A stretch of DNA of 64,000 bases from Siphonodentalium dalli (taxonomy: Eukaryota; Mollusca; Scaphopoda; Gadilida; Siphonodentaliidae), in contig CP136062.1 of the NCBI GenBank assembly GCA_032622095.1, positions 197,229,887 to 197,293,886 on the forward strand. The letters run 5' to 3'. Positions within the stretch are counted from its first letter, which is position 1; every line of letters begins with the position of its first letter. Both the position numbers and the translations under genes were made by a program. The notes below the pieces were generated by a model. That model ran no database searches. It worked only from the letters and a program-made list of their open reading frames with translations, and was not told where the DNA came from. Positions 8,565-55,919 of this stretch are shown in pieces.

Positions 8565-9300
8565 AGAACTTTCGCAAAATCTCGATTACGATTACGGATA
8601 GGATATATTGTCCTATATATAGTAAGGGGGACACCATCACGATTTACCTGTAATGGTTAATTGGTGAGGCGGTATATGCCCCACTATATTCAGTTACACA
8701 TATATTTGATAGAAAATGTAACGTGTGTCTCTTTCAGGTCCAACGTTCTTATCCGTGTGTTATACACTACACGGATACTGTTAGAGCATTCCCCAAGCAG
8801 GACCGGGGCACATCCTTGACACATCTGCACATACTTTAACCCTTTACCCAGCAGAACGGCCCTGTGCCAATGCATTCTCTTATATATGCGAGTCGACCAT
8901 AGGTCGCCAGGCATATATAAGAGAATGCATTGGCTTAACACATTTTTTTAGGCCAATGCATTCTCTTATATATGCGAGGCGACCTATGGTCGACTCGCAT
9001 ATATAAGAGAATGCATTGGCACAGGGCATAACTGTAACTATCACAATGTGGTCAAGGAGCCGGTTCCAATGATATCCATATTTGTATGGTTCTATTGAGA
9101 CAGACCGAAGATATTTTAGGCTGTTGAAGCTTTATTTGGCCGGTTTTGGCCGGTTTGTTGGGTAAAGGGTTAACTGAGTGGGGCATACTTCGTCTCACAT
9201 AAGAACCCCTATGCGTAAATATTATTTGTTTTGCCTGTCCGGGTTGAATATTGTCCATATCCGTAATCGTAATCGTGATTTTGCGAAAGGTCTCTAGTAA
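8565..9300. mobile_element. Inverted-repeat element carrying a TTAA MITE
   Basis: Outer arms are inverted: CTTTCGCAAAATCTCGATTA at 8577 onward against its complement in 9243-9299, both including GATTACGATTACGGATA. A second inner pair places TATGCCCCACT near 8675 against AGTGGGGCATA near 9178. The interior is interrupted by the TTAA MITE at 8836-9173. Arms are diverged between the matching blocks, so this is an old foldback-type element of unknown family. Confidence 0.6.
8836..9173. mobile_element. TTAA-flanked hairpin MITE, copy 2
   Basis: Same family and orientation as the copy at 2373. It has TTAA at both ends, CCCTTTACCCAGCA on the left and the complementary TGTTGGGTAAAGGG on the right. 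The AT-rich spacer between the two hairpins is shortened to roughly 20 bases, and the first hairpin has a CGCCAGGC variant where others have CGCCTCGC. The right-hand tail contains GCCGGTTTTGGCCGG. Confidence 0.85.
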
Positions 9301-13628: not shown

Positions 13629-14908
13629 CTTTCTAAATATGCAACGGGAATAGCATTACATAGATCTACCATGTAACATATGTCAGTTTCGTTGTCATGC
13701 ATTAAGGGCTTGAATAAGTCAAGGCAAGACATTTGTCCATATTTACTTATTTTGTTATAAAATAAATCTAAAGGGCGTAAACTATTCTAAGTATAATGTG
13801 ATCAGTGTTTTTTGAGCGATTCTCAGTGGTTCGCGGTGATTCTCAATGGTTCGCGGTTATTCTCAGTGGTTCGCGGTGATTCTCAGTGGTTCGCGGTGAT
13901 TCTCAGTGGTTCGCAGTGATTCTTGAATAGCCCTGGTCAGTATCCAGTATTTCTGTCGATTCATATTAATCCAATCCAGGCAAGTTCACGACACTTTCAA
14001 ACTTTTAGTTGAAACATTTATACATCTTATACATTAGTATTATATCGAATATACAACAGTTAGACGAGTGTACTAATGCACCATTTAACAAGTAATGCCC
14101 TCTTCGTCTTTGAGAAGAATGCACACGACACATCTGTGGATGGGGTACCACTATCTTGTCGGAGAATCTCGCACGTTCATTCACCATGCCATGACACCAG
14201 AGAGCGGTGCTCGCGGACATGTTCCAGCAAAATTAGCGGCGGTCAATGATATAATTTGTCCGGCTGATATCTCTCTGCTATTGTCTATGGCATTAGCGGA
14301 AACCCAATATAGATAATGGCCGTTTAGCTGAGTCATCATTCGGACAAAGATATGATCCTGAGAGGAAATTCATGTCCACAGTTGACACAAATGACCCCCA
14401 TTATTATAAGCGATACTGGGGAAATCCAGCCCTTACGATTCATTGACCCCGTAACAATGTTCACGAAGAACGAGCAATGTACTGGGAATTGGACTGGGTA
14501 CTGATGCCCGAAACAATCGGCTATGTGCTCCGGATAAATGGGTCGGTGATATACGGGCGTTCTGATCGGGAGTCCATGATTGACGTGGCATGATTAGCAG
14601 CATTAACGGATCCCGGGCTCGATACTAGCCTTTCTGACATCCGTCACAGTGTAATCTACACTAGAATAATGACCACCAAATTAGGTTAACAGAATATACT
14701 GTGTCGATTGTGGTCACAGCGAACATATCAATACACTCTACTTACGCATACTTGGAGTGTCTATGATAAACGATATATAGCCGAAAGTTACCATTTCGAT
14801 TTAAGTACATGTAGATGAATGTCGTGGATTTTTCCCCGGAGCAAGCAAGTGATATTTATAGTTGATTGGAGGGTCAGAATGTGATATGAAACGTCGGCGA
14901 ATTATACA
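13629..14908. other. Spacer with a 20-bp tandem repeat (see 13821)
   Basis: Apart from the small tandem array at 13821-13920 nothing is recognisable. Short open frames lack domains. Confidence 0.45.
13821..13920 (+). repeat. 20-bp tandem repeat, five units
   Basis: Five units of TCTCAGTGGTTCGCGGTGAT with single-base differences (TCAATGG, GGTTAT, GCAGTG). A partial unit precedes it (GAGCGAT). Minisatellite. Confidence 0.9.
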
Positions 14909-15183
14909 TAGTATGGGCTCACATTACCCGATGTGTCACCAGAAAGGGGAATTTCAACGACCACCATTTTTAGGTTGCCCAACTATTCTAATTTCGGGAT
15001 CCGGTTGTTGCGGGGTCAATATAGGGGGCACAATATGATTTTTTCCACATTTTCCTCATGCTACCCAACCTTATTTTTATTCATTTTTCGAGTTAGTTCC
15101 TGTGCAAGTCTAAGATGCTTAAGCTGTATTCAATTTATCTTTTTCTTCCTTTGATATGGATGACAGTTATGTGAGTGGTATTG

Positions 15184-16038
15184 AAAATGGTAAAACGTTT
15201 TTTTTAAAAAATTATTATAATTTTTTTTATTGGAACAGACATCAATGAATGAATGTAAATACATACAGGGTACATGTTATTATAGATAAAGTTATATTCT
15301 TCCAATTCTCTCACATCTCGCTCACTTCATTTACACGTCTTTCGTACAACATATCCACTCCCAGTGACTTACATGTGAATAGGGATAAATCGAATAATGT
15401 GTTAATTTTATATAGTAATCCAGATTTTAAATCTTTTGAACTTTGTTCCTGTGTATGGGGCATCGGTACGACATCTAACTATAGACGGCATTGTGGTATT
15501 GGGGCGATAATAGTATTTCTTGGGTATAGTAATTAAGGAGTTATTGGCATCGTGTGGTATACTTCTCACATTGGTATCTATAATTCAATTCTTTGAGGAA
15601 AACATTTAGCGATAAGTTAATTGGCTTGAATTTGGTCCTATAAATGTATTGTTTAATTAGAAGCCATAGCATGTTCGTTATATAATTCGGATTCGTTAGT
15701 GATGAACCGAGAATCATTGTCATCTGTTGGGGACAGAGATCAATGCTGTTAATTTTACCCCAATCGCTGAGTGCCTTAATGAATTTATGAACGTGAACAC
15801 AGTTCCAAAATATGTGGGAGATGTCTTCTGTCTCGCTTTTACATCTATCGCATTTATCATCTTGTCGTAAATTGGACATTTTAAGAAACTTGTTAGTTGA
15901 TAATATTCGTGAGTTTAGCCATTGCAGCTTTGTGACAGGCGTCGTGAGAAAGGGTAGTTTATCTAGTTTACACCATTGAATTGTGTTGTCAGGAAAAAAC
16001 GCTTGCCATTTTTTGTGTAAAAAACCCCCAGATAATCG
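15184..16038 (-). mobile_element. 5'-truncated L1-like retrotransposon insertion
   Basis: The left arm of the foldback element is interrupted after GTGAGTGGTATTG and resumes at ATTGACGTTTGAGCTGTGAC, whereas the right arm has these contiguous near 20780-20810. ATTG on both sides (15180-15183 and 16039-16042) is a plausible short target duplication. The insert reads on the minus strand, with its 3' end A/T-rich near 15184-15235 and a reverse-transcriptase C-terminal coding fragment near its 5' end. A 5' truncation is typical of target-primed reverse transcription. Confidence 0.75.
15541..16038 (-). pseudogene. L1-type ORF2 C-terminal fragment with zinc-knuckle
   Basis: An open minus-strand frame of about 165 codons runs from the insertion edge to a stop at 15541. 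It contains KLQWLNSRILSTNKFLKMSN, then CDRCKSETEDISHIFWNC, a C-x2-C-x8-H-x4-C motif of the kind found at the C-terminus of L1/Tx1 ORF2 proteins, followed by WLLIKQYIYRTKF, also typical of that tail. Endonuclease and RT domains are absent because the copy is 5'-truncated. The frame has no internal stop, so the insert is not extremely old. Called from motif resemblance only. Confidence 0.75.
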
Positions 16039-16066
16039 ATTGACGTTTGAGCTGTGACTTATTTTG

Positions 16067-16463
16067 TTAACCCTTTACCCAACAAACCGGCCAAAACCGG
16101 CCAAATAAAGCTTCAACAGCCTAAAATATCTTCGGTCTGTCTCAATAGAACCATACACATATGGATATCACTGGAACCGGCTCCTTGACCACATTGTGAT
16201 AGTTACAGTTATGCCCTGTGCCAATGCATTCTCTTATATATGCGAGTCGACCATAGGTCGCCTCGCATATATAAGATAATGCATTGGCCTAAAAATCATT
16301 TTTTAACACTTTTTATCATTTTTTCTTACATTCTTTAACAATTTTATAATTTTTAATGTGTTAAGCCAATGCATTCTCTTATATATGCGAGGCGACCTAT
16401 GGTCGACTCGCATATATAAGAGAATGCATTGGCACAGGGCCCTTTTGTTGGGTAAAGGGTTAA
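16067..16463. mobile_element. TTAA-flanked hairpin MITE, copy 3 (inverted)
   Basis: Opposite orientation to copies 1, 2 and 4. TTAA occurs at 16067 and 16460. The inner sequence is AACCGGCCAAAACCGGCC, the GTGATAGTTACAGTTATGCC tail and two hairpins. It lies inside the left arm of the foldback element. The right arm has the uninterrupted site (GTATTTCGCTAATCGTGAACG when read on the minus strand), which confirms exact ends and a TTAA target duplication. Confidence 0.92.
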
Positions 16464-17611
16464 TCGTGAATGTATTTTTTCCCCGCTGATTCAGCTAAAT
16501 ATGCCTGTTTCAACTCCGTTTATCAAAAATTTATCGGAAGTTGTCACCATATGAATGTATTTTTGTGATCCGTGGCATATTTGCTATTGGATGGATGTGT
16601 TATTGTTGCTCTATGTTGTACGTAGTGCGAATACAGGGCAAAAACTTACCCCTCCCCAATATGATATTTAGTGACGCATTTGACAAATAGTCGGATTACT
16701 TATGTTATATGACATGTTTGCTTGTTTAAAGCGACATGAAAACAAATGTTATATGCATATTAAGTCTATTGTCAGGATTGACTTGTTTCCATTCTTAAAT
16801 TTTGGAGTGTCGACCTAAAACGGTGTCAAAATGAGAGCATTTATTTGTATCGAAAATGATAGATAGTGCCATTTGGCGTATGGTGATCAGTGCTATTTGA
16901 AATATTATGACAACTGCAAAGTGTGAACCTCAGACATATATTTGAAAATTTGGATGTGGTCAGTGAGTCCTTGCTTGCTACAGTTGTGATAAAAATATAA
17001 CATTGGACCCTATAGAGATTCTCGTATTTGGGATAAATGGCACCCTTTTGTGTAAAATGTGAAATGAAATTTCTAAAAAATACTATGTATGAAACTCAGG
17101 TGCTGTTTGGAAAAATTTGGATGTGGTCAGATTATTCTTACTGGCTACAGTTGTGATCAAAATTTAACGTTGAACCTACGGAAAATATTTTGTTATATTA
17201 CTAAAACTTTGATAGTAATATCACTAAACGGTCACCACTTGTTATTACATGAAGACAATACAATCACGTCTGACCCACTGTAACAATCAGAAATATAATT
17301 CATGCAATAGTCGATATACTTAAGCTTCTAGATACAGTACTGGGCAAAAGTAGGTGTAGAATGGTTTGTAATGACCCCGATATCATACCGTCTGATGCAT
17401 GTTGGGTCAAGTGAAAAATTATCACAAGCCTATAGTTTTTTGTTTTCACGATGTGGCTACATAGTATATTATTGTTTTATTGATACCTGTTATCAACTGA
17501 CTAGTGTGGAGGCCAATTGCAGATCATAACGAGTTGTAATGTGATACTTACAGATGATACTCCATCATCATCGTCATCGCACATGCACCCAGCGTTTCTG
17601 TGTCATCCCTT

Positions 17612-17905
17612 CTACATTTATATGGTGTCGATTTACCTGTGTGCAAATCATTTATGACGTTATAAGGTGTCCACTTGGTGAGCGCTGTTCTTTATATGGT
17701 GTGCATTCATCGTTATATATTGTCCATTTACCTTTATATGGTGTGTTTTTACCTGTATATGGTGTCCAGCATTCACCATTAAGATGATGTCATCTGTTCT
17801 CTATATGATATGCATACATCTTTGTATGATGTTGCTCCACCTTTATATGGTGTCCATTCATCTTTATATGATTTTCAATTGTCGTCATATGACTCATATG
17901 GTGTG
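17612..17905 (-). repeat. 21-bp satellite, left inverted block
   Basis: Units such as TTTATATGGTGTCCATTTACC are the reverse complement of the units that dominate 18130-19605. The block is degenerate and shorter. With the forward block it makes the core of the foldback element itself an inverted repeat. Confidence 0.8.
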
Positions 17906-17941
17906 GAAATGTATTTATATGGAGTGAAAATATATGTATAT

Positions 17942-17966
17942 GGCTATAGCATGATGCTATAGCATA
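17942..17966. repeat. Small palindrome at the symmetry centre of the foldback element
   Basis: GCTATAGCATGATGCTATAGC is a near-perfect palindrome between the inverted and forward satellite blocks. It would form the tip if the whole element folded. Confidence 0.7.
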
Positions 17967-17988
17967 TCATACAGACATATGCTCAGAA

Positions 17989-18093
17989 TATAAAGTCCTA
18001 TACACATATAAAGTCCTATACACATATAAAGTCATATACACATATAAAGTCGTATACACATATAAAGTCCTATACACATCATATAAAGTCATA
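17989..18093 (+). repeat. 18-bp tandem repeat
   Basis: Five to six copies of ACATATAAAGTCCTATAC with single-base variants (GTCATATAC, GTCGTATAC). It shares the CATATAAAG word with the neighbouring 21-bp satellite and probably derives from it. Confidence 0.85.
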
Positions 18094-18129
18094 TGTACAA
18101 CATTTAAATAACAGCGGCCATCGTCATAA

Positions 18130-19605
18130 ATGGTCACCATCTACAGATAAAGGTAAATGGACACCATATAAAGGTAAAAACCACATCATATATAGGTAAA
18201 TACACACCACATAAAGGTAAATACACACCATATTAACAGTGAATGGACAGAATATGAGGTAAATGGACAAACAATACAGATGAATGGTAACTACATACAG
18301 GTGAATAGACACCATATAAGGTGGTTGGAAACCATATAAAGGTAAACACACCATATAAAGGTGAATGGACACCATATAAAGACATTTGCACACCATATAA
18401 ATGTGAATTGACTCCACACAAAGGAAACAACACACAATGGACACCATCTAAAGGTGAATTGACATCATGTAAAGACATTTGCAGACCATACAAATGTGAA
18501 TGGACACCACTAGAAAGGTGAATGGACACCATATAAATGTGAATGGACATCATATAAAGACATTTGCACACCATACAAAGGTGAATGGACATCATATAAA
18601 GACATTTGCACACCATACAAAGGTGAATGGACATCATATAAAGACATTTGCACACCAGACAAAGGTGAATGAACACAAATAGAAAGGTGAATGGACACCG
18701 ACAGAAAGGTGAATGGACACCATATATAGGTGAATGGACAGCACATAAAGCCATTTGCACACCATATAAAGGTAAATTGACTCCATATATCGGTGAATGT
18801 ACCCCATAGAAAGGTGAATGGACACCATATAAAGGTGAATAGACACTATAAAGACATTGGCACACCATGTAAAGGTGAATGGACACCATATAAAGACATT
18901 TACACACCATATAAAGGTGAATGGACACCATATAAAGACATTTGATCACCAAAAGGGTGAATGGACACCATATAATGACATTTTCACACGATATAAAGGT
19001 GAATGGACACAATATAAAGATATATTCACACCATATAAATGTGAATGGACACCATATAAAGACATTTATTTACACACCATATAAAGGTGAATGGACACCA
19101 TATAAAGATATTTGCACACCATATAAAGGTGAATGGACACCATATAAAGACATTTTCACATCATATAAAGGTGAATGGACACCATATAAAGACAGTTGCA
19201 CACCATATAAAGGTGAATGGGCAGCATATAAATGTGAATGGACACAATATAAAGGTGAATTGACACTATATAAATGTGAATGGACACAACAGAAAGGCGA
19301 ATGAATACCATATAAAGGTGAATTGACACCATATACAGAACAGTGCTCACCATTATAAAGGTGAATGAACACCACATATGGACATCTGCACATCATATAG
19401 AAGTGAATAGACACCACGCAAATATGAATGGACGCCATAATACAACATTTGCTTACCATATAAAGGTTAATGAATGCCATATAAATGTGTATGGACACCA
19501 TATAAAGATGAATGGACACCATATAACGACATATGCACATCATATAAAGGTGAATGAATGTCATATAAAGGTGAATGGACACCATATAAAGGTGGAATGG
19601 ATATC
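18130..19605 (+). repeat. 21-bp satellite, main forward block
   Basis: About 70 units of 21 bp. Two unit types alternate in part of the array: one reads ACCATATAAAGGTGAATGG, the other ACCATATAAAGACATTTGC, both spaced by ACAC. Variants include TAAATGTG for TAAAGGTG. Because 21 is a multiple of three, several frames stay open, up to about 260 codons on the minus strand (18233-19012), encoding low-complexity YGVHSPLYGV-like peptides. These are read as periodicity, not genes. Confidence 0.93.
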
Positions 19606-21085
19606 ATATTATGTACATGTACGACAACCCCACAAGGCAGCTATTACTTCCATAGAAAACAATACTCTTCTGATGTATGTTTGATAGACTCTTGACAGTG
19701 ATGATGACGTAGTATAATTTACCAGTGTATTTGTCACATTACAATTCGTTATGATCTACAATTTGGCTTCAATCACTAGTCTGTTGCTAACACGTATCAA
19801 CAAAATTTCACATTGTGAAAATGGTGATAATTTTTCATTTGACTCAACATAATTATGCAGCAGGCTGCATATTATCAGTGGCATTACAAAGCATTGTGCA
19901 CATACTTTTTTGCCAAGTACTGTATCTAGAAGCATAACTATATCGACTATATTGGATGAATTAGATTACTGATTGTTTCGATGAATGTCTCGTCTTTCTA
20001 TATTAGCACTTGGTGGCCGTGTAGTGACATTACTATCAATGTTCGAGTAAAATAACAAAATACTAGTATTCTCCACAGGGTTCAATGTTAAAATTTGATC
20101 AAAATGGTAGCCAGTGAGAATAGTCTAGTCACATAACTTTATCCCAAAATTGCGCCTGAGTTTCATACATAGTATTTTTTTGAAATTTCAATTCATATAT
20201 AATCATACGCAACATGGCGCCATTTATCCAAAATACAAGAATCTCCATAGAGTTCAATGTTAATTTTTTATCGCAACTGTAGCTATTACGAACCCATAAC
20301 CAAATTTTCAAATATATCTTTGAGGTTCATACCTAGCAGTTTTTGTGACAACATTTCAAATCGCACCGATCACAATACGTCAAATAGCACCATCTATCAT
20401 TTTGGTAAAAAACTAAACGCTCTTTAAATTATGTTGACCTCATTTTAGGCCGACACTCCAAAATTCAAGAATGGTGACAAGTCATCCTGAAAATAGACCT
20501 ACTAAGCATACAAATCTGTTTTAAGATAGCTTTAACAAGCAAAAAAATGTGGTATGCTGTAAAAAATCTGACTATTTGTCAAACGCGTCACTAAATATCG
20601 TTTTGGGGAGGGGTAAGTTTTTGCCCTCTATTCGCGCTACTTACGTCACAGGGCCACAATAATTCAACCATCCAATAGCAGATATGCCACCGATTACAAA
20701 AATACATACATATGGTGATAACATTCGACAAGTTTTTGTTAAACGGAGTTGAAACCGACACATTTACGTTCACGATTAGCGAAATACGTCACAGCTCAAA
20801 CGTCAATACCACTCACATAACTGTCCCCCAAATCAAAGGGAGAAAAAGTTAAATTGAACATAGATTAATAAGCTTAGACTGATGAACATCACAGGAACTA
20901 ACCCGAAAAATGCTTTAAAATAAGGTTGGGTAGCATGAGGAAAATGTGAAAAAAATCATATTTTGCCCCCAATATTTACCCCGCAACAACCGGATCCTGA
21001 AATTAGAATAGTTGGGCTACATAAATATGGTGGTCGCTGAAATTTCCATTTCTGGTCACACCTCAGGTAACGAGAGCCCATACTA

Positions 21086-22234
21086 ACATATATACTGTGA
21101 CAAGACTATAGTGCGGTCACACTAATTATACGCACGCAATACATTTCTCTTCGTCACTCGGCGCGCTTGTGTTGTGGGTAATTGACTTTATATAGTTATT
21201 TACTAGTCTAGTGTATATATCATGTTATTTAAATATTCATTAATGAACTAATTCATCGACTATATATGTTCTACATATCTCACTTCGACATGGAATTGAA
21301 TCAGGAAAGACAACCCGATCTGCGTCGTACAGAAATGTGACACAATCATGTAGCTACGTGTACAACAACCGAAAAGACAAACCCTTATTCACATCGTCAA
21401 TGTGGCTAGAAGCTAACGGCCTTATGAAAAAATAATGCCCATTGGACACAGGCACGCCGATGTATACACTTTACGGCAAAATACACGCAATTATACCATG
21501 CACGCCTTATCGTATTGGTATATCGCGTGTGTATATATGTGTAAAGTATACGAGCTTACACATGGGGTTGTCTATGGTATTAATCACTAGGCCACCAATT
21601 ACCTACACTAGTTTTCAACACATATGTACACGCGACCTTTCACCATAACCTTCCTGCTGGTCACATGGGTCAATACTATAACGAGTTTAATGATATTTAA
21701 AGATACCCTGTCCTATTTGACAACAACACAACACCATTTGTACGTCTGCTATATCAGAAAAAATATCTTTATTAATTAGCTATAGGTTATCGGTCGCGAT
21801 AAGTAGAAAGCTGCCTGCATCATAAGTAACATAAGTCGCCAATAAATGGAAAACACGGCCAATAAGTAAAAAAGTCGGGCAATAAGTAGAAAGGCAGCCA
21901 ATAAGTCAACGGTAACGTACATGACACCATACGTATTTAGCCTGATCGGCAAAGAATAATGGGTCGACGGAAGATAGATTACAGTTGCAAGCTTTCGGGT
22001 GAATTTACGTAAGACTGTCACTGTTTTTGGGAGTAAATATACGTGGATGAACTACAGGTATCCGTATCAATAGCATTCCCACTGGAAACAGAGAGTACTG
22101 TGAAATCGCTGCAAGTTCTCCACAAAGTTCACAAGAATACAAATTGCTGGGATAATCACGCACAAGAGTATATATCTATGTTAATATATTCATCCTTTGA
22201 AACAACAATTCCAATGTTGCTAATTAGTAAATAC
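21086..22234. other. Unannotated stretch; short degenerate repeat near 21830-21920
   Basis: No gene recognised. Near 21830-21920 a roughly 23-base unit (GTCGCCAATAA, CGGCCAATAAGTA, CGGGCAATAAGTAGAAA, GCAGCCAATAAGT) repeats about four times. The remainder is featureless. Confidence 0.5.
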
Positions 22235-27799: not shown

Positions 27800-30700
27800 G
27801 ATGATGTCGAGATGGCCTATATCAGCACTGTTAGTCATGTAGTGAAGCGGTGGACCAGTGGATCGCGTGCCCGAGATGGCCTATATCAGCACAGTTAGGC
27901 ATGTAGTGAAGCGGTGGTCCAGTGGATAGCGTGATCGATATGGCCTATGTCAGCATGCACTGTCAGTCATGTAGTGAAGCGGTGGTCCGTGGATCGCTTG
28001 CTCGAGATGGCCCATATCAGCACTGTTAGTCATGTAGTGAAGCGGTGGACCAGTGGATCGCATGCTCGAGATGGCCTATATCAGCACTGTTAGTCATGTA
28101 GTGAAGCGGTGGTCCAGTGGATCGCGTGCTCGAGATGGCCTATATCAGCACTGTCAGTCATGTAGTGAAGCGGTGGACCAGTGGATCGCATGCTCGAGAT
28201 GGCCTATATCAGCACTGTTAGTCGTGTAGTGAAGCGGTGGTCCAGTGGATCGCGTGCTCGAGATGGCCTATATCAGCACTGTCAGTCATGTAGTGAAGCG
28301 GTGGACCAGTGGATCGCATGCTCGAGATGGCCTATATCAGCACTGTTTGTCGTGTAGTGAAGCGGTGGTCCAGTGGATCGCGTGCTCGAGATGGCCTATA
28401 TCAGCACTGTTAGTCATGTAGTGAAGCGGTGGTCCAGTGGATGCCGTGCTCGAGATGGCCTATATCAGCATGCACTGTTAGTCATGTAGTGAAGCGGTGG
28501 TCCAGTGGATCGCGTGCTCGAGATGGCCCATATCAGCACTGTTAGTCATGTAGTGAAGCGGTGGTCCAGTTCATCGCGTGCTCGAGATGGCCTATATCAG
28601 CATGCACTGTTAGTCATGTAGTGAAGCGGTGAACCAGTGGATCGCATGCTCGAGATGGCCTATATCAGCACTGTTGGTCATGTAGTGAAGCGTTGGTCCA
28701 GTGGATCGCGTGCTCGAGATGGCCTATATCAGCACTGTCGGTCATGTAGTGAAGCGGTGGTCCAGTGGATCGCGTGCTCGAGATGGCCTATATCAGCACT
28801 GTCGGTCATGTAGTGAAGCGGTGGTCCAGTGGATCGCGTGCTTGGAATGGCCTATATCAGCACTGTTAGTCAAGTAGTGAAGCGGTGGTCCAGTGGATCG
28901 CGTGCTTGGAATGGCCTATATCAGCATGCACTGTTAGTCATGTAGTGAAGCGGTGGTCCAGTGGATCGCGTGCTTGAAATGGCCTATATCACATGCACTG
29001 TTAGTGGTGTAGTGAAGCGGTGGACCAGTGGATTGCGTGCTCGAGATGGCCTATATCAGCATGCACTGTTAGTGATGTAGTGAAGCGGTGGTCCAGTGGA
29101 TCGCGAGCTTGAAATGGCCTATATCAGCATGCACTGTTATTGATGTAGTGAAGCGGTGGACCAGTGGATTGCGTGCTCGAGATGGCCTATATCAGAACTG
29201 TTAGTCATGTAGTGAAGCGTTGGTCCAGTGGATTGCCTGCTCAAGATGGCCTATATCAGCACTGTCAGTCATGTAGTGAAGAGGATGTCCAGTGGATCGT
29301 GTGCTCGAGATGGCCTATATCAGCATGCACTGTTATCCATGTAGTGAATAGGTGGTCCAGTGGATCGCGTGCACGAGATGGCCCATATCAGCACTGTCGG
29401 TCATGTAGTGAAGAGGTGGTCCAGTGGATCGCGTGATCGAGATGGCCTATATCAGCACTGTCGGTCATGTAGTGAAGCGGTGGATCAGTGTGTCGCGTGC
29501 TCGAGATGGCCTATATCAGCACTGTCAGTCGTGTAGTGAAGCGGTGGACCAGAGGATCGCGCGCTCGAGATGGCCTATATCAGCATGCACTGTTAGTCAT
29601 GTAGTGAAGCGGTGGTCCAGTGGATCGTGTGCTCGAGATGGCCTATATCAGCACTGTCGGTCATGTAGTGAAGCGGTGGTCCAGTGGATCGCGTGCTCGA
29701 GATGGCCTATATCAGCACTGTCGGTCATGTAGTGAAGCGGTGGTCCAGTGGATCGCGTGCTCGAGATGGCCTATATCAGCAAAGGTAGTCATGTAGTGAA
29801 GCGGTGGTCCAGTGGATCGCGTGATCGAGATGGCCTATATCAGCACTGTCAGTCATGTAGTGAAGCGGTGGACCAGTGGATCGCGTGCTCGAGATGGCCT
29901 ATATCAGCACTGTTAGTCATGTAGTGAAGCGTTGGTCCAGTGGATCGCGTGCTCGAGATGGCCTATATCAGCACTATTAGTCATGTAGTGAAGCGGTGGA
30001 CCAGTGGATCGCGTGTTCGAGATGGCCTATATCAGCACTGTTAGTCATGTAGTGAAGAGGTGGTCCAGTGGATCGCGTGGTCGAGATGGCCTATATCAAC
30101 ACTGTTAGTCATGTAGTGAAGCGGTGGTCCAGTGTATCGCGTGCTCGAGATGGCCTATATCAGCACTGTCAGTCATGTAGTGAAGCGGTGGTCCAGTGGA
30201 TCGCCTGCTCAAGATGGCCTATATCAGCACTGTCGGTCATGTAGTGAAGCGGTGGACCAGAGGATCGCGCGCTCGAGATGGCCTATATCAGCATGCACTG
30301 TTAGTCATGTAGTGAAGCGGTGGTCCAGTGGATCGTGTGCTCGAGATGGCCTATATCAGCACTGTCGGTCATGTAGTGAAGCGGTGGTCCAGTGGATCGC
30401 GTGCTAGAGATGGCCTATATCAGCACTGTCGGTCATGTAGTGAAGCGGTGGTCCAGTGGATCGCGTGCTCGAGATGGCCTATATCAGCAAAGGTAGTCAT
30501 GTAGTGAAGCGGTGGTCCAGTGGATCGCGTGCCCGAGTTGACCTATATCAGCACTGTCAGTCATGTAGTGAAGCGGTGGTCCAGTGGATCGCCTGCTCAA
30601 GATGGCCTATATCAGCACTGTCGGTCATGTAGTGAAGCGGTGGACCAGTGGATCGCCTGCTCAAGATGGCCTATATCAGCACTGTCGGTCATGTAGTGAA

Positions 30701-31562
30701 GCGGTGGTCCAGTGGATCGCGTGCTCGAGATGGCCTATATCAGCAAAGGTAGTCATGTAGTGAAGCGGTGGTCCAGTGGATCGCGTGATCGAGATGGCCT
30801 ATATCAGCACTGTCAGTCATGTAGTGAAGCGGTGGACCAGTGGATCGCGTGCTCGAGATGGCCTATATCAGCACTGTTAGTCATGTAGTGAAGCGTTGGT
30901 CCAGTGGATCGCGTGCTCGAGATGGCCCATATCAGCACTGTTAGTCATGTAGTGAAGCGGTGAACCAGTGGATCGCGTGCTCGAGATTGCCTATATCAGC
31001 ACTATTAGTCATGTAGTGAAGCGGTGGACCAGTGGATCGCGTGTTCGAGATGGCCTATATCAGCACTGTTAGTCATGTAGTGAAGAGGTGGTCCAGTGGA
31101 TCGCGTGGTCGAGATGGCCTATATCAGCACTGTTAGTCATGTAGTGAAGCGGTGGTCCAGTGTATCGCGTGCTCGAGATGGCCTATATCAGCACTGTCGG
31201 TCATGTAGTGAAGCGGTGGTCCAGTGGATCGCGTGCCCGAGATGGCCTATATCAGCACTGTCAGTCATGTAGTGAAGCGGTGGTCCAGTGGATCGCCTGC
31301 TCAAGATGGCCTATATCAGCACTGTCGGTCATGTAGTGAAGCGGTGGACCAGTGGATCGCCTGCTCAAGATGGCCTATATCAGCACTGTCGGTCATGTAG
31401 TGAAGCGGTGGACCAGTGGATCGCGTGCTCGAGATGGCCCATATCAGCACTGGTAATCATGTAGTGAAACGGTGGTCCAGTGGATCGCGTGATCGAGATG
31501 GCCGATATTAACACTGGTAGTCATGTAGTGAAGCGGTGGTCAAGTGGATCGCGTGCTCGAGG
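27800..31562 (+). repeat. 64-bp satellite array of about 58 units
   Basis: A 64-bp unit, readable as GTAGTGAAGCGGTGGTCCAG, TGGATCGCGTGCTCGAGATG, GCCTATATCAGCACTGTTAG, TCAT, repeats without interruption for 3.7 kb. Recurrent variants are GGACCAG, TCGATC, GCATGCACTG (4 bp longer), GTCGGTC and GCAAAGGTAG. Since 64 is not a multiple of three, three units make a 192-bp coding-like period that yields spurious frames of about 90-100 codons (29164-29436, 29424-29732, 30132-30407). The word TGGTCCAGTGG in each unit fits the tRNA A-box consensus TRGYNNARNNG. No proper B-box follows at tRNA spacing. Confidence 0.95.
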
Positions 31563-35214: not shown

Positions 35215-35986
35215 GGCTTTTTGTTGATTAAAATGCGTTTACGAAATTAGACAACATAAAATACAAGACAGATAACTCTATATATCCCGTCTATGCTCAC
35301 GCTTTCCGAAGTCCAGCGCTATGACATTACACTATAGTTAACCGGCTATTGATTCGTGGAAATGTTGGGCCTGCAAAACGCGTTATATTTCAAACTAGCT
35401 GGCGACTTGGTGAATTTTGATAGGCATAACACATGTTATTGAATAATCATAGGAAGGCAGTGTAATTCATATAAATTGATGACAATGGTGCAAATTTCAA
35501 TTTAATGCATATTTTGTTATGTTTATCTTTGGTTAATTTCACGACATGGTATGTTTGAACCATTATGGTTCCAATATTAGCCATAGTATTACCCGTATAA
35601 AACCGATTAAATGGGGAGAGAACCGACTCGATCAGTAGAGAACCCAAATAAATATCAAAATTCGCGGTTGTCGTTGTTATAACACACACAATGGAATGTT
35701 CGTTATTATTACCCTCGTTTGGGTCACCGATTGTGAGGGGAATGGAAAAATTAATCGAATTATCAGCTGGATGTCTCAAAAATTGTGTTTTAACTGTCAA
35801 AAAGTCGCGAACATGTATAATTTCGATCACAAGGAACCATCACAAATCAGTCAAGAACCATCACAAACCGGCGTTAGAACGACTTCCGATGTAACAGTTC
35901 CTACATAGTGGTTCGCGTATGGAATTGGATTCTATACTCCTGATAAATTTGATGGAATATTACATTGCATAAACCATATTTAGTTG

Positions 35987-36203
35987 CAGTAATGCCCTAA
36001 ATAATCGACTCCTTAACCACAGCATAATTATGGGTATCTTTTCAGGATTTAGTCGGAAATATGGCTTGTTGCCATTCATCGGAAAGCTCTCAGTGAGAGC
36101 TTTCCGATGAATGACAACAAGCCATAATTATTTTCGACTAAATCCTGAAAAGTTACCCATAATTCTGCTGTGGTTAAGGAGTCGATTATTTATGGCATTA
36201 CTG
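35987..36203. mobile_element. 217-bp foldback MITE, CAGTAATGCC ends (unit 1)
   Basis: An almost perfect palindrome. The outer arms run CAGTAATGCC, AATAATCGACTCCTTAACCA, CAG and the complement back to GGCATTACTG. The centre is AAGCTCTCAGTGAGAGCTTT. A few mismatches (CCCTAAATAAT against ATAAATAAT, TCTTTTCAGG against ACTTTTCAGG). CAGT...ACTG ends with TA immediately on the right resemble Tc1/mariner-derived MITEs. The left flank is TG rather than TA, so the superfamily is tentative. Confidence 0.85.
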
Positions 36204-37410
36204 TACTTTTTGCAATATTGTATATCATAAAATGCATTTTAATTAAAATGATTTGATTGTTAATTATTTGACATAATGCGATATGCGATATCACTTAGAC
36301 CGTTCGATAAAATATAATAACTATTGCACGGCTTATCGACTATGCCAAAAATATTTTTGTGTTTATTTTCCCCTCCTGCATCAACCTGCGTCTATTTTTT
36401 TTTAGATCCAAATGTTCGTAAACCAGGCTAGTTTACTGTTGGCTGCACAAGGCCGACCTGTGTAATCTTACGAACAGCGGCTGACGGGCAGCTTTGTGCA
36501 GCGGTATAATCCTTCCAATAGTTCGCATAATATGGAAATTGGATTCCATACTCTCCTGAGGTCAGACGCCACGATCACGCTGGTGTGTACATATCCTCAC
36601 AGTTCTAGACCAGATATTAGGGATTAGTGGCAAATTCTCTGTAATGTTAGCGGTGTCATTTCATTCCATTCTTTGCAATGCCCGCGACTCCACAGAATGC
36701 GAATATTTACGAGCAATAATAGGGAGAAAATCAATTTTCCGTCTATAGAAGCGACGGCAAAATCGGATTTAATATGGGAATAATCTGTGTTCCGTAACTC
36801 CTTATATTCGAGCAATGCGACTGCATGAGTAAATCTATCAAGGAAAATAAAATACCTCGCTCAAATTGCATCCCCCGTCACTGAACAAACGAACGTGTTT
36901 CCGTGAGATTAGATATACTACCTGTAAAACCCGACTTTAGAGAGTTATTTTCTACGAGGATTTAAGCGAGTTTATGTCGACGTGGTTACTTTTACTTTAA
37001 ACATATTTTCTTCGTATATAAATATACAAAAAGGATCGGGGCACTGGTTCCCCTCTCCCGTATACAGCAATTTACAATACATTGTTATGAAATGACAAGA
37101 AGGCGATAACAGAAACATTTGTACATGGTGAGAAAAAATTGAGTGTGCATTATATCGAATAACATCTTTCAGCGTATGTGTTTATGGATTACCAACTAAG
37201 ACGAGGAAATGTTTGTGTTTGGTGTATTTTGAGCGATTTGTGGTTGACAATGTATTGTGACTATTTAATGCAGTATACTGGAAAAACCTTACCTTCTCCA
37301 TAAATGATATCTAGTACATGTATATTCCGTAAAAAATAATTATCATTGTCGGTTATAATGAAGCGAAGTTCAGTTCACCCGTTTCGATTTATGGAGTGCA
37401 TCATATTGTA

Positions 37411-37926
37411 CACTGTTAGAAAAAATATCGTCGCTTTAACGGTTTGAGACCGCGCAAAATCGCTGCCAACTTTTAACCGTTAAACATACGGTCAGGCCGT
37501 AACATGTTCCATGGTATAGAACCGTTTAAGTAACTGGCAGACCGTAACCAGTAACTGTCAGACCGTTGTATTGTTTTACGGTTCAACATCGTTTAATTAA
37601 TATCAAGACCGTAACTAATAAAGGTCAGACCAATGGTATTTTTCATGGGTCAACACCAATTTCTTGCTCTTAATTTGCTAATTTACCATAGAATTACCGA
37701 CCCGCATAACACAGAATGAATGCCGGATTAATATATATTAAATATCAGCAGAGTAAGATTCAGTCATACTGTATGGAGTCATGGCCGTATATAATATGGT
37801 CGCCGATAAATATACTATTGAGTTTTGACGCCATGACTGTATGGGGCCGTCAAACTGATGAAACGGTATGGGACCGTCGATTATGACGGCCCAAAACCGT
37901 CGAACCGACAGTAATTTCTAACAGTG
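37411..37926. mobile_element. 516-bp CACTG-ended non-autonomous element (unit 1)
   Basis: Terminal inverted repeats CACTGTTAGAAA and TTTCTAACAGTG are flanked by TA on both sides. The interior carries about twenty ACGGT/ACCGT words in both orientations (ACGGTTTGAGACCG, ACGGTCAGGCCGT, AACCGTTTAAG, GACCGTCG), many more than expected by chance. CACTG termini with dense subterminal motifs are typical of CACTA/EnSpm-like elements, where transposase binds such motifs. No coding capacity. A decayed relative lies at 23320-25018. Confidence 0.8.
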
Positions 37927-39099
37927 TAGCGTTTGAGACCTGGATAGAAATGGGGGGCTCGCGGTGTTTGGAGGTTTGTATATGAGCAGTAAATTAAATT
38001 TGTAGTCAGAGAAAGTGTCATTTCAGTTTAATTTTGTTCCAATCAACTATCGCCTTGGGTAGAAAGGTTCTCAGTGCTCAGTGTGGCATCGGTAAGAATA
38101 TAATTTTCTAGGGCGTCTGGAATTATAACTTGAGACCTGACTGCTCTGGGTGTGAGGATGGTAGATAAGTACATGTAGTTGGACGATTAATTTTTCACTA
38201 TTTTGTAAATTACTTCAAGCTTGTGGAATTGGCGCCGCGTTTCTAAAGAAAGCCAACCTTCCTCCTATAGAACAAAATTAGAAACTGAGTATGTCAGTCC
38301 AGAGACTATACGGCCACCATATGCATCGGCTTTTTGTTGATTAAAATGCGTTTACGAAATTAGACAACATAAAATACAAGACAGATAACTCTATATATCC
38401 CGTCTATGCTCACGCTTTCCGAAGTCCAGCGCTATGACATTACACTATAGTTAACCGGCTATTGATTCGTGGAAATGTTGGGCCTGCAAAACGCGTTATA
38501 TTTCAAACTAGCTGGCGACTTGGTGAATTTTGATAGGCATAACACATGTTATTGAATAATCATAGGAAGGCAGTGTAATTCATATAAATTGATGACAATG
38601 GTGCAAATTTCAATTTAATGCATATTTTGTTATGTTTATCTTTGGTTAATTTCACGACATGGTATGTTTGAACCATTATGGTTCCAATATTAGCCATAGT
38701 ATTACCCGTATAAAACCGATTAAATGGGGAGAGAACCGACTCGATCAGTAGAGAACCCAAATAAATATCAAAATTCGCGGTTGTCGTTGTTATAACACAC
38801 ACAATGGAATGTTCGTTATTATTACCCTCGTTTGGGTCACCGATTGTGAGGGGAATGGAAAAATTAATCGAATTATCAGCTGGATGTCTCAAAAATTGTG
38901 TTTTAACTGTCAAAAAGTCGCGAACATGTATAATTTCGATCACAAGGAACCATCACAAATCAGTCAAGAACCATCACAAACCGGCGTTAGAACGACTTCC
39001 GATGTAACAGTTCCTACATAGTGGTTCGCGTATGGAATTGGATTCTATACTCCTGATAAATTTGATGGAATATTACATTGCATAAACCATATTTAGTTG

Positions 39100-39316
39100 C
39101 AGTAATGCCCTAAATAATCGACTCCTTAACCACAGCATAATTATGGGTATCTTTTCAGGATTTAGTCGGAAATATGGCTTGTTGCCATTCATCGGAAAGC
39201 TCTCAGTGAGAGCTTTCCGATGAATGACAACAAGCCATAATTATTTTCGACTAAATCCTGAAAAGTTACCCATAATTCTGCTGTGGTTAAGGAGTCGATT
39301 ATTTATGGCATTACTG
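39100..39316. mobile_element. 217-bp foldback MITE (unit 2)
   Basis: Identical second copy of 35987-36203, present because the whole segment is duplicated and not by a separate insertion. Confidence 0.85.
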
Positions 39317-40523
39317 TACTTTTTGCAATATTGTATATCATAAAATGCATTTTAATTAAAATGATTTGATTGTTAATTATTTGACATAATGCGATATGCG
39401 ATATCACTTAGACCGTTCGATAAAATATAATAACTATTGCACGGCTTATCGACTATGCCAAAAATATTTTTGTGTTTATTTTCCCCTCCTGCATCAACCT
39501 GCGTCTATTTTTTTTTAGATCCAAATGTTCGTAAACCAGGCTAGTTTACTGTTGGCTGCACAAGGCCGACCTGTGTAATCTTACGAACAGCGGCTGACGG
39601 GCAGCTTTGTGCAGCGGTATAATCCTTCCAATAGTTCGCATAATATGGAAATTGGATTCCATACTCTCCTGAGGTCAGACGCCACGATCACGCTGGTGTG
39701 TACATATCCTCACAGTTCTAGACCAGATATTAGGGATTAGTGGCAAATTCTCTGTAATGTTAGCGGTGTCATTTCATTCCATTCTTTGCAATGCCCGCGA
39801 CTCCACAGAATGCGAATATTTACGAGCAATAATAGGGAGAAAATCAATTTTCCGTCTATAGAAGCGACGGCAAAATCGGATTTAATATGGGAATAATCTG
39901 TGTTCCGTAACTCCTTATATTCGAGCAATGCGACTGCATGAGTAAATCTATCAAGGAAAATAAAATACCTCGCTCAAATTGCATCCCCCGTCACTGAACA
40001 AACGAACGTGTTTCCGTGAGATTAGATATACTACCTGTAAAACCCGACTTTAGAGAGTTATTTTCTACGAGGATTTAAGCGAGTTTATGTCGACGTGGTT
40101 ACTTTTACTTTAAACATATTTTCTTCGTATATAAATATACAAAAAGGATCGGGGCACTGGTTCCCCTCTCCCGTATACAGCAATTTACAATACATTGTTA
40201 TGAAATGACAAGAAGGCGATAACAGAAACATTTGTACATGGTGAGAAAAAATTGAGTGTGCATTATATCGAATAACATCTTTCAGCGTATGTGTTTATGG
40301 ATTACCAACTAAGACGAGGAAATGTTTGTGTTTGGTGTATTTTGAGCGATTTGTGGTTGACAATGTATTGTGACTATTTAATGCAGTATACTGGAAAAAC
40401 CTTACCTTCTCCATAAATGATATCTAGTACATGTATATTCCGTAAAAAATAATTATCATTGTCGGTTATAATGAAGCGAAGTTCAGTTCACCCGTTTCGA
40501 TTTATGGAGTGCATCATATTGTA

Positions 40524-41039
40524 CACTGTTAGAAAAAATATCGTCGCTTTAACGGTTTGAGACCGCGCAAAATCGCTGCCAACTTTTAACCGTTAAACAT
40601 ACGGTCAGGCCGTAACATGTTCCATGGTATAGAACCGTTTAAGTAACTGGCAGACCGTAACCAGTAACTGTCAGACCGTTGTATTGTTTTACGGTTCAAC
40701 ATCGTTTAATTAATATCAAGACCGTAACTAATAAAGGTCAGACCAATGGTATTTTTCATGGGTCAACACCAATTTCTTGCTCTTAATTTGCTAATTTACC
40801 ATAGAATTACCGACCCGCATAACACAGAATGAATGCCGGATTAATATATATTAAATATCAGCAGAGTAAGATTCAGTCATACTGTATGGAGTCATGGCCG
40901 TATATAATATGGTCGCCGATAAATATACTATTGAGTTTTGACGCCATGACTGTATGGGGCCGTCAAACTGATGAAACGGTATGGGACCGTCGATTATGAC
41001 GGCCCAAAACCGTCGAACCGACAGTAATTTCTAACAGTG
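40524..41039. mobile_element. 516-bp CACTG-ended element (unit 2)
   Basis: Identical second copy of 37411-37926, carried by the tandem duplication. Confidence 0.8.
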
Positions 41040-41439
41040 TAGCGTTTGAGACCTGGATAGAAATGGGGGGCTCGCGGTGTTTGGAGGTTTGTATATGAGC
41101 AGTAAATTAAATTTGTAGTCAGAGAAAGTGTCATTTCAGTTTAATTTTGTTCCAATCAACTATCGCCTTGGGTAGAAAGGTTCTCAGTGCTCAGTGTGGC
41201 ATCGGTAAGAATATAATTTTCTAGGGCGTCTGGAATTATAACTTGAGACCTGACTGCTCTGGGTGTGAGGATGGTAGATAAGTACATGTAGTTGGACGAT
41301 TAATTTTTCACTATTTTGTAAATTACTTCAAGCTTGTGGAATTGGCGCCGCGTTTCTAAAGAAAGCCAACCTTCCTCCTATAGAACAAAATTAGAAACTG
41401 AGTATGTCAGTCCAGAGACTATACGGCCACCATATGCAT

Positions 41440-41769
41440 GGGGGCGGTCGAGTTTATCTTATATGTAACGCGGCCCGCAATCCCATACAGCATCCTAATT
41501 CATTTAATCAAAATAAGGTATCATATATGTTCTATAGATCTTTTAGAGCATTCTTCTGTCGAGTTGATATTTGAGCCAGACGAGAGGCGATTCTCTTCAC
41601 TGTACTTTATATATGAATGTTCCAGGTTAGATTTTGTGGTAGTTACATAACAAGGTGTTTATGTGATTACACGAATCCGACAGGGTCGTTTATAAACTTA
41701 AGGTTTGGTATTTCTGGGTGTGGGGATCAACGAGAAAACACATCCCTATGGTTTTGGATGGGTTAAAAC
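41440..41769. other. Spacer between duplication and retrotransposon relic
   Basis: Nothing recognised; it may be the decayed 3' part of the following minus-strand retrotransposon. Confidence 0.4.
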
Positions 41770-47424: not shown

Positions 47425-47824
47425 TTAACCCTTTACCCAACAGAACGGCCCTGTGCCAATGCATTCTCTTATATATGCGAGTCGACCATAGGTCGCCTCG
47501 CATATATAAGAGAATGCATTGGCTTAACTCATTAAAAATTATAAAATTGTTAAAGAATGTAAGAAAAAATGGTAAAAAGTGTTAAAAAAAGATTTTTTTT
47601 AGGCCAATGCATTCTCTTATATATGCGAGGCGACCTATGGTCGACTCGCATATATAAGATAATGCATTGGCACAGGGCATAACTGTAACTATCACAATGT
47701 GGTCAGTGAGCCGGTTCCAATGATATCAATATGTGTATGGTTCTATTGAGACATACCCAAGATATTTTAGGCTGTTGAAGCTTTATTTGGCCGGTTTTGG
47801 CCGTTTTGTTGGGTAAAGGGTTAA
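47425..47824. mobile_element. TTAA-flanked hairpin MITE, copy 4
   Basis: TTAA occurs at both ends, with CCCTTTACCCAACAGAACGG on the left and the complementary right end after GGCCGGTTTTGGCCG. Two hairpins are separated by an AT-rich spacer (TTAAAAATTATAAAATTG, GTAAGAAAAAATGGTAAAAA). Block B at 49550 has the corresponding uninterrupted site (CATACTTGAAACGAGCC against CATAATTTAA[...]TTAAACGAACC), supporting TTAA duplication. Confidence 0.9.
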
Positions 47825-49930: not shown

Positions 49931-50638
49931 TTCGTGCGTTAGAGCCCTGTGGTCCATGTGTGTGTTTCGCGCACATGACAGACAGATCCTACTCTTTTAC
50001 ATATATTGATCATATTATGCTACTTCAATATATCCTCGGGCAAATAAGTTCATATTGGACCTACATATTGACAATCGTTCATATTGGACTTATTTGGTTA
50101 TGATCAATGTGTATATGCGACACCGGAAATTATGTTTACACAATATGCCGATATTTTGTTACCGAATATTCGTGATTATTAAAATCCAGGACACATCAGG
50201 AAGATAGAATCCCTCTGAATAATAGTAGAGTATACTATACTTCTAATATATACTATCAAAAGATTATATATTTAAAGTAATTCCTCGGAAATCACGATTA
50301 TTAGGTGAAATTCTACGGATCGTCTGCAACTTGGTCTGATATACACATATTTTCTTTTGTCTAAAACGTCTGTGTGTTTACATATTGCTATGCACATGAC
50401 GTAAGAAAGGTCCACTTACAACACAAAACATGAATTTTTCGGATGTTTGTTAAATTATTGGAGAAAGACATAACTATTTGGTGTACGGCGAATTGCAGCC
50501 AACTGTAGGCAAACAATTCGGTCAAAATAAGAGTCATATCACTACACATCATTACGGTGACGATTGCGTCATTTTGTTGCTTTCCATCTCATTGGAACAC
50601 CACGTGTATGCCAAATAAATGGTGACTTATTTTTAGCT
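49931..50638. other. Unannotated spacer
   Basis: Nothing recognised. Confidence 0.4.
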
Positions 50639-51038
50639 TTAACCCTTTACCCAACAAACCGGCCAAAAACGGCCAAATAAAGCTGCAACAGCCTAAATTA
50701 TCTTGGGTCTGTCTCAATAAAACCATATAAATATGGATATCATTGGAACCGGCTCATTGACCACATTGTGATGGTTACAGTTATGCCCTGTGCCAATGCA
50801 TTCTCTTATATATGCGAGTCGACCATAGGTCGCCTCGCATATATAAGAGAATGCATTGGCCTAAAAAAAATCTTTTTTTAACACTTTTTACCATTTTTTC
50901 TTACATTCTTTAACAATTTTATAATTTTTAATGTGTTAAGCCAATGCATTCTCTTATATATGCGAGGCGACCTATGGTCGACTCGCATATATAAGAGAAT
51001 GCATTGGCACAGGGCCGTTCTGTTGGGTAAAGGGTTAA
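50639..51038. mobile_element. TTAA-flanked hairpin MITE, copy 5 (inverted)
   Basis: Same orientation as copy 3. TTAA at 50639 and 51035, a GGCCAAAAACGGCC tail, two hairpins and the CCGTTCTGTTGGGTAAAGGG terminus. Internal hairpins are essentially perfect, so it is one of the younger copies. Confidence 0.9.
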
Positions 51039-54356: not shown

Positions 54357-55919
54357 TTAATCCATGACACCTGGATAACAATCCTGACAATACAAATTTT
54401 TACATTGGACCTTATCTAGATATGATTCAAGTTGTTCCTGCATAATATGTCTTTTGAAATTAGAACGTGGTAAAAGGGATCTCAAGGACACATCAACGAT
54501 TCTCCACCGTTTTGGAAAATTGTGTAGCGGAAGACTATCACTGAATGCAGTTCTAGACATAGTTTCATATATAGTACCACTTTGCCTAGTTATTGTGTTT
54601 GGGTTATTGATTATATGATAAGTGTCCAGAAGCGGAAAGGGTAAAATATTATTTGACCAATCGTGCATATACTGATAAATCCTTAATTTGTACAAATCAA
54701 TAGCTTTTAGTATATTACTTTGCTTAAAAAGTGGTTCAGTGTGACTGTTGTATCTTGCATTATTAATAACTCGGATTGCTCTTTTCTGTAGCACTATTAA
54801 CTTATTGAACAAATGTGAATTACCCCATATTTCAATTCCATACATTAAGTGGCTCTGAATAAGAGAATGGTACAGCATACGCATACTTTTTAGTGGAAGA
54901 ATTTTCTTTACTCTGTTCATTGCATATAAAGCTCTCGATATTCTTGTTGAGACCACTGCCACATGATGTTTAAATGATAAATGTTCATCAATATTGATAC
55001 CAAGAAATTTGAATGATTTGTCTGCACAGTTGTTGCCAATTCTGTCTATTGGATGGTTATCTATTATAAGATGATGGTTGTTACAGTTATATTTACCACC
55101 AGCTGGCTGAAATAGTATATATTTTGTTTTCTTTGCATTCAATGAAAGTTTATTAGCCTTACACCAGTTACTTAGTTGATTCAACTGAATGTTAGTATAT
55201 CTGAAAAGACGTTGAATATCAGAATGAGAAGAGTAAACGGTTGTGTCATCTGCGAATGAAAGCAGAGACAGTTTGGTACTTCTATACATATCATTCACAT
55301 ATATTAAAAACAGTATGGGTCCAAGCACTGATCCTTGAGGAACCCCGGTATTTAATTGAGTCTTTGATGACACTATCCCATCTAAATCTACATATTGCAT
55401 TCTGTTTTCTAAATAGCTTTGAAACCATCTTTTAACGTTGCCTCTGACTCCATAATATTCTAACTTTGTTAAAAGTATATCATGATTAATGGTATCAAAA
55501 GCTTTAGAGAAATCAATGAATGTTGCTAGTGTACAATCCTTAGTTTTCTTATCATTGTGTGATGCTACATCATTTAGAAGTCTAATGATGGGATGAGTAG
55601 TAGAACGATTTTTACGGAAACCGTATTGATCTTGATAAAATTTATCATTGAAATACTCTGTCAATCGCCCACAAACTACCTTCTCTAGGATTTTTGAAAA
55701 AATTGGAAGTATGCTAATTGGCCTGTAATTTTCTATAGCATTGTTTTCATTGGATTTAAACAAAGGAATAACTCTTGCTACTTTCATTCCAGTGGGAACT
55801 ACACCTTCCTCCATGGATAAATTAATGATGTGACATAATGGTACAGCTATCTCATTGACAGTTTTCTTTAATAGATTTGCAGTTATTTCATTACTGTCCT
55901 TGCTTGTTTTATTTTTCAT
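54357..55919 (-). CDS. ORF2 C-terminal part: reverse transcriptase
   Basis: 520 codons with a complete non-LTR reverse transcriptase domain. ENYRPISILPIFSKILEK at residues 63-80, YGFRKNRST at 99-107, catalytic motif A FIDFSKAFD at 134-142, GVPQGSVLGP at 192-201, catalytic FADD at 222-225, and the thumb-like tail ending CKNLYCQDCYPG. The enzyme copies element RNA at a nicked target. The ATG at 55919 is not a natural start: the RT domain begins upstream in the preceding frame, and the two frames overlap by 11 bases at an A-run. The domain looks catalytically intact. The clade assignment (CR1/L2/Jockey group) is from motif style only. Confidence 0.93.
   Translation of the reverse strand: MKNKTSKDSNEITANLLKKTVNEIAVPLCHIINLSMEEGVVPTGMKVARVIPLFKSNENNAIENYRPISILPIFSKILEKVVCGRLTEYFNDKFYQDQYGFRKNRSTTHPIIRLLNDVASHNDKKTKDCTLATFIDFSKAFDTINHDILLTKLEYYGVRGNVKRWFQSYLENRMQYVDLDGIVSSKTQLNTGVPQGSVLGPILFLIYVNDMYRSTKLSLLSFADDTTVYSSHSDIQRLFRYTNIQLNQLSNWCKANKLSLNAKKTKYILFQPAGGKYNCNNHHLIIDNHPIDRIGNNCADKSFKFLGINIDEHLSFKHHVAVVSTRISRALYAMNRVKKILPLKSMRMLYHSLIQSHLMYGIEIWGNSHLFNKLIVLQKRAIRVINNARYNSHTEPLFKQSNILKAIDLYKLRIYQYMHDWSNNILPFPLLDTYHIINNPNTITRQSGTIYETMSRTAFSDSLPLHNFPKRWRIVDVSLRSLLPRSNFKRHIMQEQLESYLDKVQCKNLYCQDCYPGVMD

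Follow-up and report, generated by a model that had tools for sequence, protein, structure and literature searches.

The element at positions 14909-21085 of the 64-kb window (the whole stretch of DNA analyzed here) is an imperfect inverted repeat of ∼6 kb, in which the arm at 14909-17612 faces an inverted copy at 19610-21085 (Table 1). With two insertions removed from the left arm, the arms measure 1452 nt (left) and 1476 nt (right), in agreement with the original prediction of inverted arms of ∼1.4 kb. Of the 1368 ungapped columns in their alignment, 1164 match (85% identity; 204 differ, K2P 0.167), and a further 192 columns contain gaps. The local score of the arms, with the insertions set aside, is 1304, compared to at most 37 for 20 single-base shuffles. 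BLAST recovers the same relationship on opposite strands, pairing 14909-15184 with 20803-21085 (86.6%) and 16496-17572 with 19700-20766 (75.7% with gaps counted). Along the alignment columns, identity is 0.88-0.92 in the first 300, 0.82-0.86 in the following 1000, and then 0.90, 0.84, and 0.75. The best-conserved outermost 300 columns would fit the ends of a transposon, with a difference that is small.

Table 1. Coordinates of the features that make up the inverted repeat.
Feature	Position	Strand	Evidence
Left arm, outer part, starting TAGTATGGGCTC	14909..15184	+	86.6% to 20803-21085, inverted; alignment
LINE-like fragment with zf-RVT match, 859 nt	15185..16043	-	zf-RVT and junctions compared with right arm
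Left arm, short piece separating the two insertions	16044..16070	+	
MITE insertion, 393 nt, CCCTTTACCCAACAA ends, at TTAA	16071..16463	+	
Left arm, inner unique part, holding the internal duplicated segment	16464..17612	+	
Left satellite array, 21-bp monomers, reverse orientation	17613..17942	-	Consensus score in reverse complement
Centre palindrome, 21 nt, 10-bp arms, 1-nt spacer	17943..17963	.	
18-bp variant block of the satellite	17988..18094	+	TRF; identity 0.71 at lag 18 over 17988-18110
Right satellite array of 70 monomers; 42-bp dimers most pronounced at 19060-19230	18147..19609	+	
Right arm, without either insertion, ending GAGCCCATACTA	19610..21085	-	

Insertions and an internal duplication in the arms

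Only the left arm carries the two insertions. The first is a LINE-like piece of 859 nt flanked by an ATTGA duplication (15180-15184 and 16039-16043), and the right arm is uninterrupted at the same site. A minus-strand frame within this piece matches zf-RVT (E = 7.4e-5, 23.8 bits, below the curated cut-off of 27.5), and the insertion is probably a truncated LINE. The second is a MITE of 393 nt bounded by two copies of TTAA, at a place where the right arm has one CTAA. The family to which it belongs has CCCTTTACCCAACAA ends, as seen in the copy at 16071, and, internally, a long inverted repeat. Four further members of this family lie in the window at ∼2373-2737, 8836-9174, 47425-47824, and 50622-51038; the listed pairs, some of them partial, are 82-99% alike, and the TTAA duplication was checked for the left-arm copy only. 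Because the right arm lacks both the LINE-like piece and the MITE, these insertions most likely postdate the pairing of the arms.

A segment within the left arm is duplicated (∼16917-17031 and 17087-17200), and this internal duplication is present in both arms at matching places. In local comparisons of the copies, the positional pairs score 100 and 91, the crossed pairs 65 and 40, the pair within the left arm 81 (its ungapped identity, 0.86 over 85, is the highest of all), and the pair within the right arm 39. Since the positional pairs outscore the crossed pairs, the sequences suggest that both arms descend from one arm already bearing the duplication. The score of 81 and identity of 0.86 within the left arm weigh against a firm claim, as does the overlapping range of identities among the copies (0.78-0.86, over differing lengths).

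A mirrored 21-bp satellite

The inner portions of both arms consist of a 21-bp satellite, which runs in opposite orientation on either side of the centre. It had been predicted to form a separate core between the arms, but it is the inner continuation of both. In the left array, the stretch 17606-17945 scores 348 as its reverse complement versus 159.5 in the plus orientation, and 10 shuffles of the reverse complement score at most 170. The 18 rows of this array, some of them partial, fit the consensus only as reverse complement, which confirms the reverse-orientation block anticipated left of the centre. The consensus of the 70 monomers in the right array (18147-19609) is ATAAAGGTGAATGGACACCAT, and 10 more divergent satellite rows span from the centre to 18147. 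A small palindrome had been placed near 17942; it is found at 17943-17963, and is one of six places in the window with arms of at least 10 and a spacer of at most 4.

Because the satellite is mirrored as well as the arms, the whole 6 kb can be read as a single inverted structure, with the long inverted arms and mirrored arrays making up most of its length. The proposed mirror symmetry about 17.95 kb, with unequal satellite on the two sides, holds for the arrays, which are mirrored with the right one longer. It does not extend to the halves as a whole, which measure 1792 nt left of the centre (insertions excluded) and 3132 nt right of it, nor to the 18-bp variant block on the right side, for which no left-side counterpart was seen.

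The two sides also differ in the higher-order pattern of the satellite. Over much of 18355-19210, the ATAAAGGTGAATGGACACCAT consensus monomer alternates with a ATAAAGACATTTGCACACCAT form, and identity at lag 42 exceeds that at lag 21 in 18355-18700 (0.61 versus 0.54), 18700-19060 (0.68 versus 0.64), and 19060-19230 (0.90 versus 0.67). It does not in 18140-18355 (0.39 versus 0.48), 19230-19612 (0.60 versus 0.60), or the left array (0.46 versus 0.52); the regular alternation in 42-bp dimers is confined to the right side. Rows resembling the ATAAAGACATTTGCACACCAT form do occur left of the centre, at 17918 and 17939 immediately adjoining it, so this variant probably predates the mirroring or was transferred from one side to the other. 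The regular dimers are most simply explained by a later spread on the right side.

A derivation of the satellite from the arms was considered and rejected, since the 42-bp dimer aligns locally to each arm, on each strand, no better than 200 single-base shuffles do (P = 0.41-0.90). As no similarity was found between the satellite and the unique arms, there is no sign that the satellite repeats sites from the arm ends.

Ends, coding content, and origin of the element

Homology between the arms ends at TAGTATGGGCTC on both outer sides (read as TAGTATGGGCTC on the left and GAGCCCATACTA on the right), and the 12 outermost bases of the two arms are identical in the alignment. These two ends are the sole matches in the window at up to two mismatches, where 3.8 would be expected by chance. 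BLAST found no second copy of the arms within the 64-kb window. A 21-base exact pattern gave zero matches in prokaryote genome contigs and viral contigs, and in viral contigs the same held for a 20-letter pattern of which 18 bases were fixed, as would be expected if the element is of animal origin. The string of the 12-base terminus also appears in one paper that, by its title, concerns C. elegans hedgehog-related signalling.

The flanks at the drawn ends share ACA (3/3, P = 0.017). Longer comparisons match at 4/7 bases for 7 bp (5/7 with the ends shifted by 2 either way), 1/8 for 8 bp, 6/9 for 9 bp (P = 0.011, uncorrected), 2/10 for 10 bp, and 6/11 for 11 bp (P = 0.043). If the terminus is taken to be GTATGG, a duplicated TA could also be present. 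Target duplications were examined at 11 lengths and several shifts, and none at these flanks is convincing. Great age and decay could have blurred a target duplication, including one of the 7-8-bp type.

There are 63 open reading frames of at least 45 amino acids in 14800-21200. The Pfam scan covered 20 from the arms and one in the LINE-like insertion; the remaining 42 overlap the satellite or the insertions in whole or in part. Among the 20 arm frames there was no match to a transposase family, including Mutator and the THAP-domain P-type, and the earlier statement that no transposase is visible stands for these frames. Their three weak matches (E = 0.012-0.25) fall below the curated cut-offs, and none is to a transposase. 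Coding arms were also rejected as a possibility, since the arm alignment contains many gaps whose lengths are not divisible by three. No Rfam family at gathering score and no tRNA by ARAGORN was found in the window.

Long inverted arms with short tandem repeats are a feature of Foldback (FB) of Drosophila melanogaster and of the sea urchin foldback element. Because its inverted arms, unequal tandem arrays, nested insertions, and lack of a transposase in the 20 arm frames match the foldback layout, we consider the element at 14909-21085 to be probably an old and decayed non-autonomous foldback (long terminal inverted repeat) DNA transposon. An element of this type lacking a transposase had been proposed from the start, and this is still the best reading.

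Close parallels come from the published accounts of three elements. Galileo (P superfamily) copy 112 of Drosophila willistoni is described as 9021 bp long, with TIRs of 4246 and 4680 bp, unequal direct tandem repeats in the two TIRs, nested pieces of other TEs, and no transposase segment, all of which resemble the element here (PMC4168063). Its repeats are ∼140 bp rather than 21 bp, and the family makes 7-8-bp target duplications with the consensus GTATTAC, whereas no clear duplication is seen here (PMC4168063). Tetris of Drosophila virilis is likewise an apparently non-autonomous foldback with TIR tandem repeats shared with satellite-like arrays, but those repeats are ∼220 bp and lie in the outer domain, target duplications are 8-10 bp, and three structurally complete copies are shown (PMC4079207). 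Tm1 (Mutator/Foldback, root-knot nematodes) has a TIR made mostly of 13-15-bp tandem repeats that differ in number between the ends, as here; it differs in its mostly 9-bp target duplications, in its short outer motifs that are not inverted, and in the putative transposase of some members (PMC3169594). The similarity to Galileo copy 112, Tetris, and Tm1 does not sustain the earlier view that the arrangement is unusual (PMC4168063; PMC4079207; PMC3169594). By analogy, the element looks like another case of a layout already described in flies and nematodes.

Mobility of the element is proposed from this layout and precedent. Each arm would comprise a unique outer part of ∼1.45 kb followed by the 21-bp satellite, with the arms meeting at the small palindrome. 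A transposase supplied from elsewhere would bind at the ends of the arms, possibly also at repeated sites in the interior, and the element would have moved by cut and paste. Sites within the TIR tandem repeats of Galileo are reported to be bound by its THAP domain (PMC3688188), and the 21-bp satellite here might have a similar role. The copy would then have decayed and acquired the LINE-like fragment and the MITE in its left arm, and the right satellite array may have expanded, or the left contracted, by slippage or unequal exchange.

An alternative that we regard as unlikely, yet worth weighing, is that the structure was never mobile and arose by local inverted duplication of a segment adjoining the satellite, for instance through a template switch at the central palindrome. 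The palindrome does lie at the centre, there is neither a proven target duplication nor a second arm copy within the window, and the matching outer ends cannot separate this origin from a foldback transposon because a plain inverted duplication would equally produce them. Against it stand the layout, which is that of known foldback transposons, and, slightly, the better conservation of the outermost stretch. More improbable still is that the element belongs to a long-TIR family with TAGTATGGGCTC ends outside the known foldback superfamilies, in which the satellite would serve as internal transposase-binding sites and as the seed of a dispersed satellite in the genome. We think it very unlikely that two members of one repeat family inserted separately, in head-to-head orientation, next to an older satellite; an arm identity of only 85% would suit such an origin, but the satellite is itself mirrored, and its two arrays meet the arms at equivalent positions. 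Finally, long inverted repeats and satellites are error-prone in assembly, and the 3.1-kb pair at 35215-41442 may itself be an artefact, but a false palindrome is hardly credible here because it would not give arms that differ at 204 of 1368 ungapped columns or insertions in one arm only. The length of the satellite array in the assembly may still be wrong.

The foldback transposon reading would make this one probable added case of a foldback with a short satellite in its arms, longer on one side than on the other, in a genome that is probably that of an animal, judging from the LINEs and MITEs of the window. Should more copies exist, they would reveal whether the satellite moves together with the element and gives rise to arrays at other sites, which has been proposed for Tetris (PMC4079207).

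Other repeats in the window

The window contains several other repeats. The units at 35215-38329 and 38328-41442 form a 3115-bp head-to-tail pair that is 99.97% identical, and are either an assembly artefact or the product of a tandem duplication that is very recent. Both units carry a perfect palindrome (36073-36113 and 39186-39226; 20-bp arms, 1-nt spacer) nested in a larger inverted repeat. A 64-bp satellite occupies 27807-31561 (58 copies, 90% matches), with a G+C content of ∼0.50-0.53 that is above most of the window. Within its unit is GGTGGTCCAGTGGATCGCGTGC, which we take to resemble the start of a tRNA or SINE; ARAGORN, and Rfam at gathering score, returned nothing for this satellite. 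On the minus strand at 54357-57531 is a LINE with two long adjoining frames, which match the reverse transcriptase RVT_1 (E = 1.4e-40) and, more weakly, an endonuclease (E = 0.00031, below the curated cut-off).
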